DNA of 64,000 bases from Candidatus Binatia bacterium (GTDB lineage Bacteria; Desulfobacterota; Binatia; HRBIN30). Position numbers and translations under genes: made by a program. Below are positions 41,164 through 62,882 of this stretch, in pieces. The notes under the pieces are model-generated. The model was given only the letters and a program-made list of their open reading frames with translations. It was not told where the DNA came from and did no database searches. The stretch spans positions 1 to 64,000 of the forward strand of contig JAKLJW010000005.1 of the NCBI GenBank assembly GCA_023150935.1, given 5' to 3'. How positions within the stretch are numbered: the first letter of the stretch is position 1; each line of letters begins with the position of its first letter.

Positions 41164-42330
41164 GTGCTGACAAGCGAAAGGTTCTTTAACGCGCGCGCCG
41201 CGGCGCGCACCGGAGTGGCGCTAATGGTGGTGACCGCCCTGTCGGCGGCATCTGCCTGCCGGCGCACCGATGTGGTGGCTGCCGGTCCGGCCACCCCGCT
41301 CGCGCCCGCCGCGGCAAGCGAGCCGGTGGTGGACGTGACGGCCGCGGTGGTGCGCCGCGGACAGATTCTGCAGCCGGTCTTGGCGCCGGGGAGTCTGGTG
41401 GCGTCGCGAGAAAGTCAGATCGGCACCGAGGTGACCGGGCGAGTTCAGAAGGTTCATGTCGCGGAGGGCGATCGGGTCGCGGTTGGCGCGCCGTTGTTCG
41501 AGATCGATCCGGTCCCGTACGAAATGGCGTTGCGGCAGGCGGAGGCGGTCATGGACGTGGCCAGGGCCGAGCGCGCGCAACTGGAGAGCGACCTCGCGCG
41601 TTCGCGAACGTTGCGCAAGCAGGAGGTCGTGTCGCAGCAGGACTTCGATCGGCTGACGACACAGCTAGCGGTGGCTCAGGCGCGAGAACGTCAGGCGGCC
41701 GAGACGTTGGCGTTGGCGCGCTACAACGTTTCGCGCACCGTCGTGCGTGCGCCTTATGATGGGTCGGTTGCTCGACGTCTGGTGGACGAAGGCACGACAG
41801 CGCTGGTGCAGCCGCAAACGATCGTGGTCGTGCTGCAGGAGACGGCGGAGCTGGAGGCCAATGCCTCGATTCCGGAAAGCCAGTTGGCCGTGGTGGAGGC
41901 AGGCGACAAGGCGCTCCTGCGGGTCGAGGGGATTCCCGACCCTATAGAGACCGCGGTTTCGGCGGTAAGCGACAGCATCGACCCGGCGACGCGGACCTAC
42001 CTGGTGAAGATGCGCGTACCGAACGCCGACCGGCGGCTGAAAGCGGGGGTGTTCGCGCTGGTGGAGATCATCCCGCGCTCGAAGTTCGACGTGCTCGTCG
42101 TACCCGCGGATGCGGTTCGAACGGAGGAAGGCCGGACGCGGGTCATTGTCGTGCGCGACGGGCGCGCGGTGGCGGTACCGGTGGAAATCGGCCTGACCTC
42201 CGAGCAAGCGGCCGAGGTGTTGCGGGGAGTGGACGTCGGCGATCAGGTGCTGGTCGGCGAAGCGGCGCGCTCGATTGCGCCGGGGATGCGCGTCCGAGTG
42301 GCCGCGGCACCGCAAGAGGCGAAGTCGTGA
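41164..42330 (+). CDS. RND efflux periplasmic adaptor (membrane fusion) lipoprotein
   Basis: This 388-residue HlyD/AcrA-type adaptor has an N-terminal signal ending in lipobox SAC (Cys32). The barrel-sandwich domain has ESQIGTEVTGRVQKVHVAEG and VGAPLFEIDPVPYE. A short helical hairpin (AQLESDLARSRTLRKQEVVS) follows, then VVRAPYDGSVARRLVDEG and the beta-barrel parts SIDPATRTYLVKMRVPN and LLKAG-type sequence. It links the inner-membrane pump to an outer-membrane channel. The start is the GTG at 41164 behind a G-run. The next gene begins within a 4-base GTGA overlap. Confidence 0.88.
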   Translation: MLTSERFFNARAAARTGVALMVVTALSAASACRRTDVVAAGPATPLAPAAASEPVVDVTAAVVRRGQILQPVLAPGSLVASRESQIGTEVTGRVQKVHVAEGDRVAVGAPLFEIDPVPYEMALRQAEAVMDVARAERAQLESDLARSRTLRKQEVVSQQDFDRLTTQLAVAQARERQAAETLALARYNVSRTVVRAPYDGSVARRLVDEGTTALVQPQTIVVVLQETAELEANASIPESQLAVVEAGDKALLRVEGIPDPIETAVSAVSDSIDPATRTYLVKMRVPNADRRLKAGVFALVEIIPRSKFDVLVVPADAVRTEEGRTRVIVVRDGRAVAVPVEIGLTSEQAAEVLRGVDVGDQVLVGEAARSIAPGMRVRVAAAPQEAKS

Positions 42331-45300
42331 AACTGGCCGACACGTCGATTCGGCGGCCGGTTTTCGCGGTCATGCTCATCGGCGGCCTGGTGCTGCTCGG
42401 GCTGATCTCGATTCCCCGACTCGGCCTCGATTTGTTTCCGCGCGTCGAGTTCCCGATCGTGACGGTGACCACCGTGCTCGAGGGCGCCGCGCCCGAGACG
42501 GTCGAGCGCATGGTGTCGCAGGTTCTGGAGGAATCGATCAATACGATCGAGGGGATCCGGACGCTGCGCAGCGCCTCCAGCGATTCGCTGTCGTTGCTGT
42601 TCATCGAGTTCGAGCTCGAGTACGACATTCAGGGGAAGGCGCAGGAGGTCCGCGATAAAGTCGCCGCCGTGCGCGGCAAGTTGCCGCGCGACATCGAGCC
42701 GCCGGTGGTCGACCGCGTCGATCCCGACTCGTCGCCGATTCTCGCGGTGATGGTGGCGGGTCCGCATTCGATCCGCACGCTCAGCGAGTACGTCGACAAG
42801 CGTATCAAGCCACAGATCGAGCGCATCGCCGGCGTCGGTAGCGTCGAGCTGGTCGGCAACCGACCCCGCGAGATCCGCATCTGGATAGATCCGATCCGGC
42901 TGACCGGTTACGCGTTGTCGGTCGACGATGTGCTGGCGGCGCTGCAGCGCGAGCACGTCGAGCTGCCGGGAGGACGCATCGAAACCGGGCAGCACGAGTA
43001 CACGGTAAAGACCAAGGGCAAGCTCACCGACGCCAGTCGCTTCGGCGGGATTGTCGTACTCGAGCGGAAAGGCCGGGTCGTGCACCTGCGCGACGTGGCG
43101 TGGGTCGAAGACGGCATGGCCGACGAGCGCACCGTCTCGTATCTCAACGGCAAGCGAGGGGTGGCCATGCTCGTGCGCCGCCAGTCGGGCGAAAACACGG
43201 TGGCGGTGGTGGACGCCGTGCGCGGGCAACTCGACGAGATCCGGAAGAACCTGCCGCAGGGGTACGAGATCATCGAAGCGATGGACCTGTCGCGGTTCAT
43301 TCGCAGCGCCATCCGCGATGTTGCGGTCGATCTCGCCTGGGGAGCGGTGCTGGCGTCGGCAGTGGTACTGCTGTTCCTGCGTAACGTGCGCTCGACGTTG
43401 ATCGCGGCGATCGCGATTCCGTCGTCGCTGCTGGGCAGCTTCGTTTATTTCTATTTCTTCGGGTTCACGCTGAACACAATGACCCTGATGGCGTTGTCGC
43501 TTTCCATCGGGGTGCTCATCGACGACGCGATCGTCGTGTTGGAAAACGTGTACCGTCACATGGAGCTGGGACAGACCGCACGCGAAGCCGCGTCGGCCGG
43601 CACGGGGGAGATCGGCCTTGCCGTGGTGTCGACGACACTGGCGTTGTGCGCGGTGTTCGTGCCAATTGCCTTCATGAGCGGCGTCGTCGGACGGTTCTTC
43701 CGGGAGTTCGGTCTGGTGGCCTCGTGTGCGGTGCTGAACTCGATGCTGGTGTCGCTGACACTGACGCCGATGATGTGTTCGCGTTATCTGCGCATCGAAA
43801 ACCGCGAGTCCCTTGCCTACAGGTCGCTGGAGCGCGGCTACGGGGCGCTCGAGGCCGGTTACCGGCGGGTGCTTGGTTGGGGACTGCGTCATCGCCCGAT
43901 AGTGGTGACGATTGCGCTGGCGGCAGTGCTCGGTGGTGTGGCGATAGCGGCGCGGGTGCCGGTGGATTTCGTGACCTCGGAGGATCGCAGCGAATTCAAC
44001 GTCTGGCTGAAGCTTCCGCTGGGCAGCACGGTGGCGCAGACGCAGACTGCAAGCCGGGCGCTCGAGGCGGAGCTGGAGAAGTATCCGGAGGTCGTCGCCG
44101 TGTTCTCGACCGTGGGTGGCGGCCTCAAAAAGAGGGTCAACGAGGCGATCGTCTACGTGCAGTTGGTCGAGAAGGGCGAACGGACCCGTTCGCAGCAGGC
44201 GATCATGAGCACGTTGCGTGAGCGCATCCGGGCGTTGCAGTTGCCGGTAGCCGACTACGCTGTCGAGGACGTGCCGATGATTAACTTCCCTGGCTCGCGC
44301 AACGCGCAGATCATGTATTCGTTGCGCGGTCCGGACATCGACCGCCTGCAATACTACGCCCGGTCGCTGGTGGAGAGGATGCGCGCGCAAGGGGGTTACG
44401 CCGATATCAACATCTCGTACGAGACCGGGAAACCGGAGATCGCGCTGGACATAGCGCGCGAGCGGGCCGCCGATCTCGGCGTGCCGGCGTTGCAGATCGG
44501 GCGGACCATTGCCGCGCTTCTCGCCGGTTACGAGGCGACGACCTTCGAGGAGAAGGGCGAACGCTATGACGTGCGATTACAGGTACGGCCCGAGTACCGC
44601 GACGACCCGACGAAGCTGGACTTCCTGCGTGTGCGCTCGGCCAACGGCGCGCTGGTACCGTTGCGCAATCTGGTTGTTCCGCGCATCGGCAGCGGCCCGG
44701 TCCAGATCGACCGGGAAAACCGGACGCGGTCGATCACGGTGTACGGCAACCTCGACGGCAAGGCGGCCGGGACGGCAGACGAGGAAGTGATTCGGATCGC
44801 CAGGGAGCTTGGCATCCAGGGGGAGTACGAGCTCGATGCCGTCGGACCGTCGGAGCGACTGCGTGAGACCACCGCCGCCGTGGGATTCGCTTTTTTCCTG
44901 GCGCTCGTGGCGATCTACATGATCCTGGCTTCGCAGTTCAATTCCTTCGTTCACCCCTTCACGATCATGCTGTCGGCTCCGCTCTCGTTCATCGGGGCGT
45001 TCGCGTCGGTATGGCTCCTCGGTTATCCGCTGGATCTAATGAGCCAGATCGCCTTTCTGATGCTCATGGGAGTAGTGATGAAGAACGGCATCCTGCTGGT
45101 GGATTACACGAACACCCTGCGGGAGCGCGGGTTGGGGCTGTACGATGCCGTTCTGGAGGCGGGTCCGACGCGGATGCGCCCGGTTCTGATGACGGCGGTT
45201 TCGACGATCTTCGGCATGTTGCCGGTGGCGCTGAGCACCGGCGACGGTTCGGAGTGGCGTAATCCGATGGGTATCGTGTCGATCGGCGGATTGCTGGCCT

Positions 45301-45443
45301 CGACCTTCCTTACGTTGCTCGTCGTGCCGGTCGTCTACACGCTGTTCGATGACGCCGGGCGCATCTTCGTTCGCGTTCTGGGCGGCGGTCGCCGGGCTGC
45401 GGTGGTGGAATCGCCGCGGCCGACGCCCACGCCGAGTGCCTGA
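42327..45443 (+). CDS. RND efflux pump, inner-membrane permease (HAE1-like)
   Basis: A 1038-residue AcrB-family pump with twelve predicted membrane helices in two repeats and two large periplasmic parts. The proton-relay Asp pair is Asp399 and Asp400 in GVLIDDAIVVLENVYRHME. The start ADTSIRRPVFAVMLIGGLVL and the second repeat MILASQFNSFVHPFTIMLSA, LMGVVMKNGILLVDYTN, GPTRMRPVLMTAVSTIFGM are standard. It exports amphiphilic compounds driven by protons. The operon lacks an outer-membrane channel; a TolC-family gene is at 57-58.7 kb. Confidence 0.93.
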   Translation: MKLADTSIRRPVFAVMLIGGLVLLGLISIPRLGLDLFPRVEFPIVTVTTVLEGAAPETVERMVSQVLEESINTIEGIRTLRSASSDSLSLLFIEFELEYDIQGKAQEVRDKVAAVRGKLPRDIEPPVVDRVDPDSSPILAVMVAGPHSIRTLSEYVDKRIKPQIERIAGVGSVELVGNRPREIRIWIDPIRLTGYALSVDDVLAALQREHVELPGGRIETGQHEYTVKTKGKLTDASRFGGIVVLERKGRVVHLRDVAWVEDGMADERTVSYLNGKRGVAMLVRRQSGENTVAVVDAVRGQLDEIRKNLPQGYEIIEAMDLSRFIRSAIRDVAVDLAWGAVLASAVVLLFLRNVRSTLIAAIAIPSSLLGSFVYFYFFGFTLNTMTLMALSLSIGVLIDDAIVVLENVYRHMELGQTAREAASAGTGEIGLAVVSTTLALCAVFVPIAFMSGVVGRFFREFGLVASCAVLNSMLVSLTLTPMMCSRYLRIENRESLAYRSLERGYGALEAGYRRVLGWGLRHRPIVVTIALAAVLGGVAIAARVPVDFVTSEDRSEFNVWLKLPLGSTVAQTQTASRALEAELEKYPEVVAVFSTVGGGLKKRVNEAIVYVQLVEKGERTRSQQAIMSTLRERIRALQLPVADYAVEDVPMINFPGSRNAQIMYSLRGPDIDRLQYYARSLVERMRAQGGYADINISYETGKPEIALDIARERAADLGVPALQIGRTIAALLAGYEATTFEEKGERYDVRLQVRPEYRDDPTKLDFLRVRSANGALVPLRNLVVPRIGSGPVQIDRENRTRSITVYGNLDGKAAGTADEEVIRIARELGIQGEYELDAVGPSERLRETTAAVGFAFFLALVAIYMILASQFNSFVHPFTIMLSAPLSFIGAFASVWLLGYPLDLMSQIAFLMLMGVVMKNGILLVDYTNTLRERGLGLYDAVLEAGPTRMRPVLMTAVSTIFGMLPVALSTGDGSEWRNPMGIVSIGGLLASTFLTLLVVPVVYTLFDDAGRIFVRVLGGGRRAAVVESPRPTPTPSA

Positions 45444-57343: not shown

Positions 57344-58723
57344 TCAGTATTCCAGTCCGGCGAGTTCGCGTCCGACTGCCTTGCTGAGTTGACCGACGGC
57401 GACGTTGAAGTCGTAAACGGCGCGCAGGTAATCCGAACTGGCTTCCGTGTACACACCGATGGCCTTGAAAAGCTCTTCCGCCTCGCCGATTCCGAGATCG
57501 AAATTGGCAACGGTGAGCAGGAGCAGGCCGCGACCTGCCTTGCGGCCGTCCTCGGCAACGCGCACCGAGTCGCGCGCCTGGACAAGGCCGGCGTAGGCTT
57601 TGTGCACTTCGAGGGCGAGGCCGGTCGCGGCTTCGCGGCGGGCGGCTTCCAGACGCTGGAGCTCGGCTCTGGCCCCGTCGATCTTGGCGCTCGTCATGAA
57701 GACGTTGAGATCCCACTGCAGACCGACGATCCAGATGGGCGCAATGAAGTTGAACGGGTCGTAGGCGAACGGGTTGGTCTGCTCCGTGCGATTGCCGGCC
57801 CAGGCGTACTGAAAACCGGTGGTGACGAACACGTTCGGATAGTACCCGGCTACCTCCAGATCGAGTCTTGCCACCTGCGCGGCGATGCCCGTTTGCAGTG
57901 CCCGGGTCTCGGGGCGCCGACTCGGGCCCTCGGCGATGTAGTTGTCGAGCGGTTCGATAGTCGCGTCGATGGGCTTGAGTTTACGATCGGCAATCTCGAA
58001 GTCGACCGCACTATCCAGTCCGATGGCTCGGGCGAGCGCGCTGCGCGTGAGCGGGAGAGAGGCGTCGATCTCGATGACCCCTCTGGCGAATCGGGCGCGG
58101 CCGGCCTGGAGTTTGAGCAGGTCAATTTCGGTTACGGCGCTGGAGCCTTCGTCGAGCCGCCGCTTGGTTTTCGACAGCGCCTGGTCGAGAGTATCGAGGT
58201 TGTCGTGCAGGACATCGGCAAGCTGGCGGCCGAGGATGAGACCGTAATAGAGCTGTTTGACGCTCAGGATGACGTCGGCGCGCTTGCTGTCGCCGCGTGC
58301 CTGCTCCGCTTGCACGCCCTCCTGGGCGGCCCGCAGGGCAGCGTCGAGTTTGCCGAACGTATAGACCGGGATGTTGACCTCGACATCGATCCGGGTGAAC
58401 GGTCCCAGGCCCTGAAAGACGTCGTTCTTGTCGTTCGGCGAGTAGAGAACGCTGCCCTTGGCTTCGTTGACGAGACCGAGGAGCTGAACGTATTCGGCCG
58501 TTCCCCAGCGTCGTGCCCTGGCCTCTTCCAGCTTGGCGCGGGCCGCGCTCAGGTCCGCGGCGACGGCGCCGAGGTCCGGGCTGCCCGCAAGCGCAGCGCG
58601 AATACATGCGGCCAGGTCGTAGGGCGAGCCGGCCGCGTTTCCCCGCGCCGCGGTAATCGGGCCGAGCACAAAGCCGACGACAACGGCGCAGGCTATTATC
58701 CAGGACTTGCTTCGTATCCTCAC
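57344..58723 (-). CDS. TolC-family outer-membrane protein
   Basis: This 459-residue protein has a signal peptide (about 1-28) and two long helical repeats with an OEP pattern: LAACIRAALAGSPDLGAVAA, AARAKLEEARARRWGTAEYV, VNIPVYTFGKLDAALRAAQE, EVAGYYPNVFVTTGFQYAWA, ARAELQRLEAARREAATGLA and LEVHKAYAGLVQARDSVRVA. It should form a trimeric channel across the outer membrane. I start at GTG 58723 for the signal peptide. It diverges from the ABC/MlaC-like cassette across 146 bases, suggesting a joint function, and faces sixA with a 24-base gap. Confidence 0.85.
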   Translation of the reverse strand: MRIRSKSWIIACAVVVGFVLGPITAARGNAAGSPYDLAACIRAALAGSPDLGAVAADLSAARAKLEEARARRWGTAEYVQLLGLVNEAKGSVLYSPNDKNDVFQGLGPFTRIDVEVNIPVYTFGKLDAALRAAQEGVQAEQARGDSKRADVILSVKQLYYGLILGRQLADVLHDNLDTLDQALSKTKRRLDEGSSAVTEIDLLKLQAGRARFARGVIEIDASLPLTRSALARAIGLDSAVDFEIADRKLKPIDATIEPLDNYIAEGPSRRPETRALQTGIAAQVARLDLEVAGYYPNVFVTTGFQYAWAGNRTEQTNPFAYDPFNFIAPIWIVGLQWDLNVFMTSAKIDGARAELQRLEAARREAATGLALEVHKAYAGLVQARDSVRVAEDGRKAGRGLLLLTVANFDLGIGEAEELFKAIGVYTEASSDYLRAVYDFNVAVGQLSKAVGRELAGLEY

Positions 58724-58869
58724 GATCCCTGTCCCACTCCGATCGACCTGCGGGCCCGCGGTCGGCCCGGGTCGGCGCCCCATCCTACGCCGCCGCGGCT
58801 CTTTATTAAGCCAGGCGGATCTGCTTGAACAGCACCGTTTACAGGTACTCTGGCCCTCCTCGAGCACGC

Positions 58870-59880
58870 ATGTCTACTGCGACGAGCGCAGTTTCACCTT
58901 CGCCCCCACGACCGCCCTCGATACTACATCCGGGGGCGGGGCGCACGCCCGTAGCCGCGCTTCGGCTCGAAATGCTGTGCAAGCGCTACGAGCACGTGGA
59001 AGCGGTCGCCGGCCTGAGTTTCGAGATCGGGCAGGGCGAGGTGTTCGGCTTGCTGGGCCCCAACGGCGCCGGGAAGACGTCGACCATTTCCATGGTCGCG
59101 ACTCGCCTGCGGCCGACCTCCGGGGACGCTTTCGTGTTTGGTCGCAGCATCCTCCGTGACGTCGCCGCGGTCCGACAGACGATCGGCGTCGTCCCCCAGG
59201 ACATTGCCCTGTATCCGCGTCTGACGGCGGCGGAAAACGTGCGCTTTTTCGGCCGCATGTACGGCGTCCCGAAAGCGGAACTGGAGCGTCGCCTCGATGA
59301 GCTGCTGGAGGAGGTGGGTCTGGACGCGCGGCGCAACGACCCGGTGGCCACGTTCTCGGGCGGCATGAAACGGCGCCTCAACCTGGCCGTCAGCCTGGTG
59401 CACCGGCCGCAATTGGTCCTGCTGGACGAGCCGACGGTGGGGGTGGATCCGCACTCGCGGGAGAACATTTTTTCGATCGTCCGCAACTTGCGCGAGAGCG
59501 GAACGGCGATTCTCTATACCACTCACTACATGGAAGAAGCGGAGCTGCTGTGCGACCGCATCGGGATCATGGACGAGGGCAAGATCATTACCATGGGAGG
59601 CCTCGACGAACTGCTGGCGGCAGCCGGTTGTACGGAGATCGTGGAGGTCCGCGGGATACCGCCGGGTGGAGACATGACCCGCTGGCAGCGCCTGCCGGGT
59701 GTCTGCAAGGCGGAGACCACAGAGAGCGGTGTTCGTCTGTTCGTTACGAGCGCCACACCGGTGCTCGCGCCGTTAAGCCAGGTCATGAGCCGCCTGCCGG
59801 GCGAACCCTCGGTGCAGATCGCGCCGATGAGCCTGCAGACCTTGTTCCTGCAACTTACGGGCAAGGAGCTTCGCGACTGA
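58870..59880 (+). CDS. ABC transporter ATP-binding protein (ABC-2 type exporter)
   Basis: A 336-residue ATPase: Walker A GPNGAGKT (63-70), Q-loop VVPQDIALYPRLTAAENVRF, signature FSGGMKRRLNLAVSLVH, Walker B QLVLLDEPTVGVDP and the switch His in YTTHYMEEAELL. It matches the DrrA/NatA-type ATPases that work with ABC-2 permeases. A variable Pro-rich N-terminal tail of about 30 residues precedes it, and a C-terminal extension follows the core. It begins the cassette with the MlaC-like and permease genes; the next start is two bases after its stop. Confidence 0.9.
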   Translation: MSTATSAVSPSPPRPPSILHPGAGRTPVAALRLEMLCKRYEHVEAVAGLSFEIGQGEVFGLLGPNGAGKTSTISMVATRLRPTSGDAFVFGRSILRDVAAVRQTIGVVPQDIALYPRLTAAENVRFFGRMYGVPKAELERRLDELLEEVGLDARRNDPVATFSGGMKRRLNLAVSLVHRPQLVLLDEPTVGVDPHSRENIFSIVRNLRESGTAILYTTHYMEEAELLCDRIGIMDEGKIITMGGLDELLAAAGCTEIVEVRGIPPGGDMTRWQRLPGVCKAETTESGVRLFVTSATPVLAPLSQVMSRLPGEPSVQIAPMSLQTLFLQLTGKELRD

Positions 59881-59882
59881 CC

Positions 59883-60497
59883 GTGCGGCGCCGCGATCCC
59901 ATTGTCGCAGCCGCGGCTGCTGCGTTTCTCTGCCTGATCGCGTCGCCGATCGCGGCCGCTCCGTCGCCTTTGGAGTACACGCGATCCATCCTCGAGCAGA
60001 CCCGCCTTATCGTCGATGGTCAGCAACCCCACAACGCCAAGCTAACCGCATTGTCCGACTTGCTGAAGAAGTTCCTCGACACGGACACCATGGGCCGCGC
60101 CGCGCTCGGAAACAACTGGGACAAGTTCAAGCCCGATCAACAGCAGGAGTTTCTGAGCCTCTTTCGGGAGTTGTTCCAGCGCACCTATGTTCAGAAGCTG
60201 CTGCTGTTCGAACGCCCCGACTTCGAGTACGTCGGGGAAAAGATCGACAAGAACACGGCCCAGGCCGATACGAAGATCGTTACCCCACGGGACGAGTTCG
60301 CCGTGGTCTATCGGCTACGCCGTGACGGCGAACGCTGGCTGGCCACCGACATTCAGATCGAGGACCTCAGCTTGACGACGAATTTCCGCCGACAGCTCGA
60401 TCGCATGCTCGCGAAATCGACGCCGGAGGAGGTTCTCAGCCGGATGCGGCGCAAGTACGGCCCCGGTGGCAAGGGTGCGGAGGATGAGGAGCTGTGA
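59883..60497 (+). CDS. MlaC/Ttg2D-like periplasmic protein
   Basis: This 204-residue protein has a signal peptide (VRRRDPIVAAAAAAFLCLIA, cut near AAA/PSPLE) and an MlaC-type body: FLDTDTMGRAALGNNWDKFK, QQQEFLSLFRELFQRTYVQK, LRRDGERWLATDIQIEDLSL and TTNFRRQLDRMLAKSTPEEV. MlaC ferries phospholipid between membranes in the Mla system. Here it sits between an ABC ATPase and an ABC-2 permease rather than MlaE/MlaD. The start is GTG 59883, two bases after the ATPase stop; its own stop overlaps the permease start (GTGA). Confidence 0.85.
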   Translation: MRRRDPIVAAAAAAFLCLIASPIAAAPSPLEYTRSILEQTRLIVDGQQPHNAKLTALSDLLKKFLDTDTMGRAALGNNWDKFKPDQQQEFLSLFRELFQRTYVQKLLLFERPDFEYVGEKIDKNTAQADTKIVTPRDEFAVVYRLRRDGERWLATDIQIEDLSLTTNFRRQLDRMLAKSTPEEVLSRMRRKYGPGGKGAEDEEL

Positions 60498-61588
60498 AGC
60501 TGCTGCGCATCATGCTGAAGGATTTGCGGCTGATTTCGCGCGACTACTCGGCCTTCGTCTCGATCCTGATTGTGCCGCTGGTCATTATCTTCGTCATCGC
60601 CGAGACCCAGTCGGGCGAGGGTACGGAGAGCATCGTCTTCCCGATCGTCAATGAGGACCAGGGCCCGGTGGCCAATGCCCTCATCAAGGTCTTCAAACAA
60701 CATCTTAAGGTAATCGAAGTCGACCGCTCTGCGGCCGAGCGCCTTGTCGCGATCGAAAACACCGCGCCCGCCATGCTCGTGCTGCCGGGCGGCATGAGCA
60801 AACGTTACCTGACGGAGAAGCCGAGCACCGTAGAGCTGCTGACCGACCCGGCGCAGTGGGAAGCACTGCAGGCGATCCGCGTGATCTTCCTGCTGGCGGA
60901 TCGCGAGGCCGCCTCGCTCGGCGACCCGTTCAGCGAGGAACTGCTCGAGCTCAAGGAGCGCAACCTCACCGGCAAGAGGCTCAAATTCAGCTCGCTCGAA
61001 CAGAACATTCCCGGGTTCAGCGTCATGTTCGTGCTGCTCAGTCTGATCTTCAGCGTCGCGTTCGGGCTGCGCGAGGAGGAGGCCTGGGGGACCAGTGCCC
61101 GCTTGTCGATCGCACCGGTAACTCAGGAGACCGTGCTCGGCGGGAAGCTGCTGGCCCGCATGGTTGTCGGCACCGGGCAGTTGCTCATCCTGCTCGTCTT
61201 TGGGCATTTCGCGTACGGGCTGTCGCTGGGAAGCTCGCCGGCGACGCTCGTTCTGGCCGCAACGTGCATCGTTTTCTCGATGGCCTGCTTCAGCGTTATT
61301 GTCGCGGCTCTGGCGCGGACCCGCGAGCAGATCATCCCGATCGGCCTTTCGGCCGTCTTTATCCTTGCCGCGCTCGGCGGTCTCTGGTGGCCCTTCTTCG
61401 AGCAACCGAAGTGGATGCAGGCGATCGGTCAGGGGGTCATGACGAGTTGGTCGATGTTCGCGATTCAAGACGTCATGTTGCGCGACCGAACGCTCGTGCA
61501 GATCGCGCCGAAACTCGCCTTCCTGATCGGCTACGGGCTGATCTCTTTTGCCATCGGCAGCCGTTTCTTCCGCTACGCGGACAAGTGA
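60494..61588 (+). CDS. ABC-2 type permease
   Basis: This 364-residue membrane protein has one N-terminal helix (about 21-38: [17 protein letters not shown]), a large periplasmic domain (about 40-175, [20 protein letters not shown]) and five or six helices in the C-terminal half ([58 protein letters not shown]). This is the layout of ABC2_membrane_3/DrrB-YhiH-type exporters. It starts with GTG inside the MlaC-like gene's stop and so is translated as part of the same operon. The substrate is probably a lipid or hydrophobic molecule, inferred from the MlaC-like partner. Confidence 0.87.
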
Positions 61589-61694
61589 CCCGCGGTTGCA
61601 TGAAGGTGGCGAAACTGGCAGCTTCTCGGCAGCGCGCCGTTGGCCGCTGCTCAGCCGCCGCGTCGCAATCACGCATTACGGAGGAACGATCGCT

Positions 61695-62882
61695 ATGGGG
61701 CGCAAGGTCTACGTCATCGGCGTCGGCATGACCAAGTTCGAAAAGCCGGGTTCGCGCAATTGGGACTACCCGGACATGGCCAGGGAGGCCGGAGAGAAGG
61801 CGCTGGCGGATGCCGGCATAGAATACGGCCTGGTCGAGCAGGTAGCGGTCGGTTACTGCTACGGCGACTCCACCTGCGGGCAGCGCGCCGTTTACCAACT
61901 CGGTCTTACCGGGGTGCCCATCTACAACGTGAACAACAACTGCGCCACCGGATCGACCGCCCTGTTCATGGCGAAGCAGTTCGTCGAGGCGGGTATTGCC
62001 GATTGCGCCATGGCGCTCGGTTTCGAGAAGATGGAGAAGGGCTCGCTCGGGGCCAAGTTTACCGACCGCATCAACCCCATGGACAAGCAGTTCGAGTTGA
62101 TGGTGTCGCTGCGCGGCTTTGCCAAAGCGCCGCCGGCGCCGCAGTTCTTCGGTAACGCCGGACGCGAGCACATGGACCGCTACGGCACCAAGCCGGAGCA
62201 CTTCGCCAAGATCGGTTGGAAGAACCACAAGCACTCGGTGAACAACCCGTACTCGCAGTTCCAGGACGAATACACGCTCGAGCAGATCCTCAACGCCCCG
62301 ATGGTATACGAACCCCTGACGAAGCTGCAGTGCTGCCCGACGTCGGACGGCTCGGGAGCGGCCATCCTCGCCAGCGAGGATTTCGTCAAGCGGCATAATC
62401 TGCAGGCCCGCGCGGTGGAAATCGCCGGTATGGCGATGGCCACCGACCTCCCCAGCACCTTTGGCGAGCAAAGCTGCATCAAGCTCGTTGGCTACGACAT
62501 GTCTCGGACGGCGGCGCAGAAGGTGTACGAGCAGAGCGGTCTCGGACCGGAAAACGTCGACGTGGTCGAGTTGCACGATTGCTTCTCGTGCAACGAATTG
62601 GTGACCTACGAAGCCCTCGGTCTCTGTCCCGAAGGCAAGGCGGGCGAGTTCGTCGATTCCGGAGCCAACACGTACGGCGGCAAGGTGGTCGTCAACCCCT
62701 CCGGCGGTTTGATCTCCAAGGGGCATCCGCTTGGAGCCACCGGCCTGGCCCAGTGTGCCGAGCTGACGTGGCAGTTACGCGGCGCAGCCGATAAGCGGCA
62801 AGTAAAGGGTGCGAAGGTCGGGCTGCAGCATAATCTCGGCCTCGGCGGCGCTGCCGTCGTGACCATGTACCGCAAGAACTAG
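61695..62882 (+). CDS. SCP2-type thiolase (lipid-transfer protein/thiolase)
   Basis: This 395-residue thiolase-superfamily protein is of the sterol-carrier-protein-X type: nucleophile Cys83 in [13 protein letters not shown], His in [20 protein letters not shown] and C-terminal motif [31 protein letters not shown] ends the protein. Substrates of this group include long or branched 3-ketoacyl-CoA and steroid-side-chain CoA esters. It follows the ABC-2 permease by about 100 bases behind its own GGAGG site and may be separate from that operon. It is a different branch from the thiolase at 7-8 kb. Confidence 0.88.

Follow-up and report, generated by a model that had tools for sequence, protein, structure and literature searches.

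In Escherichia coli, the direction of transport that is best supported for MlaA and MlaC is retrograde (review PMC10212509). In Veillonella, mlaEFD is located upstream of a tolC homologue (mlaEFD-tolC-tamB) and both MlaC and MlaA are absent (PMC10665443), while a Mla-Pqi hybrid is known from Brucella (PMC12436622). Hopanoids are moved by the RND transporter HpnN (PMC6394551, PMC10942540), which reportedly works without dedicated periplasmic or outer-membrane partners (PMC6394551).

The 64,000-nucleotide stretch of Candidatus Binatia DNA analyzed here, referred to below as the window, encodes an MlaC family carrier locked into an operon with an export-type ABC-2 pump and not with the usual Mla pump. 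Such an arrangement points to a route, as yet unstudied, by which lipids would pass between the inner and outer membranes, and bears on the supply of phospholipids and other lipids to the outer membrane as well as on the direction in which MlaC and MlaA carry them. No published description of MlaC with an ABC-2 transporter, with or without TolC, was found in the open-access literature. Most characterised ABC-2 transporters export.

The window cassette and its gene products

The cassette is encoded on the + strand and consists of an ABC ATPase of the DrrA/NodI type (58870-59880; ATG at 58870, stop at 59880; PF00005, 114 bits), an MlaC-family periplasmic lipid carrier of 204 aa (59883-60497; GTG at 59883; PF05494, 110 bits against a cut-off of 26) and an ABC-2 permease of 364 aa (60494-61588; GTG at 60494; PF12698, 83 bits). 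The ATPase stop and the MlaC start are separated by a 2-nt gap, and the MlaC stop and permease start overlap by 4 nt. By these coordinates the three genes form a single operon-like unit in which MlaC is coupled to both of its neighbours, as the preliminary description of this DNA had it. A TolC-family OEP with a signal peptide is encoded on the - strand (57344-58723; GTG start at 58723; PF02321, 128 bits), and is divergent from the cassette across an intergenic region which, by direct reading, spans 146 nt (58724-58869). The Pfam scores of all four gene products are far over cut-off. The same description had noted this divergent TolC and the lack of MlaD, MlaE and HlyD, and both points hold: none of the three was found within or adjoining the window cassette, and more than 12 kb separate the cassette from the closest HlyD gene found, a member of the AcrB-type operon at 41164-45443. 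A promoter scan of the 146-nt divergent region found no sigma-70-type match, and promoter and terminator scans of the cassette gave nothing above chance level. Directly 3' of the cassette, the + strand encodes a thiolase-type lipid-transfer protein (61548-62882; PRK08256, 678 bits); no PRK08256-type match adjoins the other fetched cassettes.

The best NCBIfam matches of the ATPase are TIGR01188 (drrA) and NodI, both under the curated cut-off. Its Walker A motif reads GLLGPNGAGKT, its signature FSGGMKRR and its conserved C-terminal motif LTGKELRD, and invariant residues were identified across an alignment of 18 proteins. With a DrrA/NodI-type ATPase (PF00005) and an ABC-2 permease (PF12698) in one operon, the cassette has the make-up of an ABC-2 exporter.

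The MlaC gene begins with a putative Sec signal peptide (59883-59960, + strand; MRRRDPIVAAAAAAFLCLIASPIAAA), read from the translation and lacking a lipobox. The AlphaFold2 model of the protein (pLDDT 89.5) has MlaC/Ttg2D structures as its best PDB matches, lipid-bound ones included, with target-normalised TM-scores of up to 0.85, and so fold and PF05494 score both place it in the MlaC family. Its best NCBIfam match is HpnM (TIGR03481), at 37.5 bits well under the curated cut-off of 160. Net charge is very variable in cassette and canonical MlaC proteins alike, and gives no reading on loss of the basic MlaD-binding groove.

For the permease the AlphaFold2 model is of moderate quality (pLDDT 80.5, pTM 0.65). 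It places a domain of about 120 residues (approximately residues 45-165), predicted from the model to be periplasmic, between the first transmembrane helix and the remaining ones. The nearest solved folds are ABCH-9C, which is ceramide-bound, followed by ABCA-type transporters; the model also matches 3cni, the structure of a domain from a putative ABC-2 transporter. A search of plasmids with the permease returned weak, partial matches to general permeases only. At five loci (L088-L090, L092 and L093) a paralogue of the ABC-2 permease, belonging to the cassette family, was observed without MlaC, and no ATPase was detected adjoining it. In both of the loci scanned (L088, L089) a Sulfotransfer_3 gene precedes this paralogue, and three of the assemblies that carry it also contain a full cassette. 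The paralogue is possibly a sulfated-lipid exporter that borrows the cassette ATPase. Because it belongs to the same family and occurs without MlaC, the fold of the cassette permease can serve without MlaC.

Contig C18 of the same genome carries the canonical mlaF-E-D-A-C operon in complete form (L064), and the MlaE and MlaD genes of this genome are located on contigs other than that of the cassette. The cassette is therefore an addition to Mla and not a replacement of it. With MlaD (PF02470) and MlaE (PF02405) absent beside it, the cassette falls outside the Mla system as defined by those two proteins, yet it probably works like Mla.

Conservation of the cassette and its outer-membrane partners

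When 84,980 species' genomes were searched with the permease alignment, 29 loci emerged, most of them under Candidatus Binatia/Binataceae or Deltaproteobacteria MAG labels. The cassette set, with duplicates removed, comprises 32 loci, and the order ATPase-MlaC-ABC-2 is kept in every one of them, from which we conclude that the arrangement is not due to chance. Intergenic gaps in these 32 cassettes are mostly between -4 and +13 nt, usually overlaps of 1-4 nt. MlaC orthologues with 42-68 % identity were found in relatives from the family and order of the window genome and from two further families of the class. Neither MlaD nor MlaE adjoins the cassette in any locus scanned, and the arrangement that the preliminary description had named as damaging to its proposal, with the MlaC gene of relatives beside mlaDE, does not occur in cassette orthologues. 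A profile built on the cassette MlaC scores cassette members at 138-309 bits, and no MlaC outside the class exceeded 132 bits among the 395 genomes sampled in the phylum, to which deep sampling was confined. A contig titled Klebsiella pneumoniae (CAMBZJ010000008.1; L081, L092) bears Binatia-type cassette genes, and its title is probably wrong. Additional MlaC-ABC pairs seemed to be present in other families, where ABC ATPase genes lie near some MlaC genes (L132, L133, L135), but these were dropped because the genes checked between the two (L133, L135) are RadC or alcohol dehydrogenases.

The flanks of 28 of the 32 cassettes are decidable, the remaining four ending at a contig edge. A TolC gene of the same subfamily adjoins the cassette in 19 of the 28, so that the conservation of TolC on which the first proposal had been made to depend was mostly upheld. 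Among these 19 the gene is divergent in nine, as in the window, downstream on the same strand in another nine and upstream on the same strand in one; because adjacency is seen in three different arrangements, the linkage has outlasted rearrangement. In five further loci (5/28) a gene for an MlaA lipoprotein is coupled to the cassette instead of TolC; the window cassette itself has no MlaA. In three Binataceae-type genomes the MlaA gene lies 3' of the permease with a 4-nt overlap (L071:8089-9066, L076:8104-9042 and L077:2313-3248), while in family f11 it lies 5' of the ATPase (L050:9274-10131, with a 4-nt overlap, and L051:5972-7015). The cassette MlaAs score 200-212 bits with PF04333. Neither TolC nor MlaA adjoins the four remaining cassettes (L078, L079, L083 and L085), which are divergent members of the set.

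The linkage to TolC and to MlaA is mutually exclusive, and for the TolC subfamily the exclusion extends to whole genomes. Genome-wide, the five MlaA-linked genomes contain no cassette-type OEP (no match, or a general OEP at 103 bits), whereas in the TolC-linked genomes tested the cassette-type OEP scores 639-698 bits. With this profile, which was built on the cassette OEPs, the window protein reaches 691 bits; no other OEP found in its genome exceeds 110. Each of the five genomes carries the cassette MlaA and at least one other MlaA. In a tree of 29 MlaA proteins, based on full domains, the five cassette MlaAs form one clade (support 99/97), and the cassettes that bear them occupy two distinct regions of the permease tree. 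From the alternation of partners, the genome-wide absence of the OEP and the MlaA clade it follows that one of two kinds of outer-membrane partner is dedicated to the cassette.

Other neighbours were recorded along the way. At one locus (L038:2354-5184) an LPG-synthase TM-type protein and a sulfotransferase are encoded immediately 5' of, and in line with, a TolC-ATPase-MlaC-ABC-2 row. Neighbours of the sulfotransferase, LPG-synthase and LpxL types give a hint that the substrate is a lipid, and their distribution is too scattered for a particular lipid to be named. Additionally, nine genomes (L246, L250, L254, L255, L258, L260, L264, L266 and L267) have a third MlaA lineage (a clade with support 100/100), encoded on the strand opposite to that of a separate MlaC-like gene.

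The TolC subfamily and other MlaC engines

The TolC subfamily of the cassette is also found elsewhere in the phylum. Among the 40 strongest matches to the OEP profile outside the cassette, taken from the 395 genomes, 24 have an MlaC gene within 4.5 kb, far over the chance expectation from one to five MlaC genes per genome. Operons of the form mlaE-mlaF-mlaD-TolC-mlaC are present in other families of the phylum (L127, L130, L197, L198 and L200-L202). At a further group of loci three genes stand in a row, TolC and MlaC with one for a protein of about 920 residues between them (L203-L207, L210-L212, L215, L216, L220 and L230); membership of the long protein in the MMPL family was confirmed by Pfam for L204, the one scanned. 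MlaC and this TolC subfamily therefore recur around three engines, namely MlaEFD, MMPL and, in Binatia, ABC-2, and the subfamily is more likely a partner of MlaC than a drug-efflux duct.

The MlaC clades largely track engine type. In the MlaC tree all 16 of the cassette MlaCs sampled form one clade with support of 100/100, whichever outer-membrane partner they have, and all nine MMPL-linked MlaCs form another (100/99). TolC genes of the same subfamily were also seen divergent from a lone MlaC-like gene (L054:6782-8846 and L192-L194), where no ATPase or permease was seen; neighbours of these pairs include, at L054, a gene resembling a lipid A acyltransferase and, at L192, one with a CDP-alcohol phosphatidyltransferase domain.

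Proposed transport and comparison with known systems

In our reading the cassette represents a third form of the MlaC lipid shuttle, one driven by ABC-2. We consider it somewhat probable that it encodes an Mla-like shuttle with an ABC-2 transporter, and not an MCE-type MlaFED(B), as the inner-membrane engine. The cargo, contacts and direction that we infer are as follows. Two DrrA-type ATPases would drive a homodimer of the ABC-2 permease, and this unit may bring an amphiphilic lipid to the periplasmic side of the inner membrane. The secreted MlaC would dock on the predicted periplasmic domain of the permease, take the lipid into its acyl-chain pocket and cross the periplasm. There the lipid would be handed to the MlaC-associated TolC-family protein in most lineages, that of the window included, and to the cassette-specific MlaA lipoprotein in others.

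Of the two directions we prefer the outward (anterograde) one as more likely, because most characterised ABC-2 transporters export. Tentatively, then, we propose that an ABC-2 exporter loads MlaC for delivery to the outer membrane by way of a TolC-type protein or a dedicated MlaA, which would make it a third engine class, besides MCE and MMPL/RND, on a shared MlaC and outer-membrane shuttle module. The four divergent cassettes that have no adjoining outer-membrane partner count against the shuttle reading, as do the moderate quality of the permease model and the paralogous permease that occurs without MlaC.

Retrograde lipid transport by the cassette strikes us as rather doubtful. It sits poorly with the complete canonical mlaFEDAC operon in the same genome and with the exporting character of most known ABC-2 transporters, and a TolC-type partner is hard to imagine extracting lipid. 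It nevertheless keeps substantial weight, since for MlaA and MlaC of E. coli a retrograde direction has the best support (PMC10212509) and a cassette-specific MlaA is present in two lineages; the E. coli case argues against export, at least for cassettes of the MlaA type.

The preliminary description had suggested that the MlaC-like carrier replaces the adaptor of an exporter. In such a tripartite TolC-dependent system MlaC would act as a periplasmic adaptor or binding protein in place of one of the HlyD type, and a hydrophobic small molecule such as a lipid-like metabolite, solvent or pigment would be released outside the cell. Much of the setting for this stands: MlaC is fixed in an ATPase/ABC-2 operon, a PF02321 protein adjoins it in 19 of the 28 decidable loci, no HlyD/MFP adaptor was found beside the cassette, and toluene-tolerance protein is an alternative name for members of the MlaC family. 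However, MlaA takes the place of TolC in five loci, in genomes without this type of TolC, and TolC does not adjoin four more. Phospholipids are bound in MlaC structures, and a soluble carrier of about 20 kDa offers no obvious sealed duct. We consider tripartite export of this kind improbable; the suggested replacement of the adaptor is supported only in part. That TolC and MlaC are neighbours by descent only, beside an ATPase and permease forming an ordinary drug or lipid exporter, would agree with the existence of a permease paralogue without MlaC, yet is hardly credible because the arrangement is conserved across the class, with MlaC between ATPase and permease in 32 of 32 loci, usually coupled, and with the cassette MlaCs in a clade of their own.

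The swap between TolC and MlaA, the cassettes without TolC and the pairing of the subfamily with MlaEFD and MMPL engines thus speak for a soluble lipid shuttle between the membranes, in which engine and outer-membrane partner are exchangeable, more than for a TolC duct that MlaC seals as its adaptor. As a natural hybrid of MlaC, and in some lineages MlaA, with an engine of the export class, the cassette provides a direct test of what sets the direction of transport, the engine or the carrier and outer-membrane parts.

With the Mla system (MlaA-OmpC/F, MlaC and MlaFEDB) the cassette shares an MlaC-family carrier, an ATP-driven inner-membrane engine and, at five loci, an MlaA in the operon. It differs in lacking MlaD (the MCE ring) and MlaE, its engine being a DrrA-type ATPase with an ABC-2 permease, and in that the outer-membrane partner in the window genome is a TolC-family protein. 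The MlaEFD-TolC operons of Veillonella (PMC10665443) and of this phylum (L127, L130 and L200-L202) likewise encode a TolC-family protein with a lipid-transport ABC system, and those of this phylum resemble the cassette further in having MlaC; their engine, however, is of the MCE type, and the Veillonella system has a long MlaD bridge and neither MlaC nor MlaA (PMC10665443). The TolC-MMPL-MlaC triads also place an MlaC-family protein and the same TolC subfamily around an engine of lipid-transport type, which is MMPL/RND in those transporters and ABC-2 in the cassette. The DrrAB/NodIJ exporters and the ABC-2 exporters of the ABCA, ABCG and ABCH types have the ATPase and permease families and the fold in common with the cassette and, to our knowledge, have neither an MlaC carrier nor MlaA encoded alongside. 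The cassette further indicates that the engine (MCE, MMPL or ABC-2) and the outer-membrane partner (TolC type or MlaA) are exchangeable around a conserved carrier.
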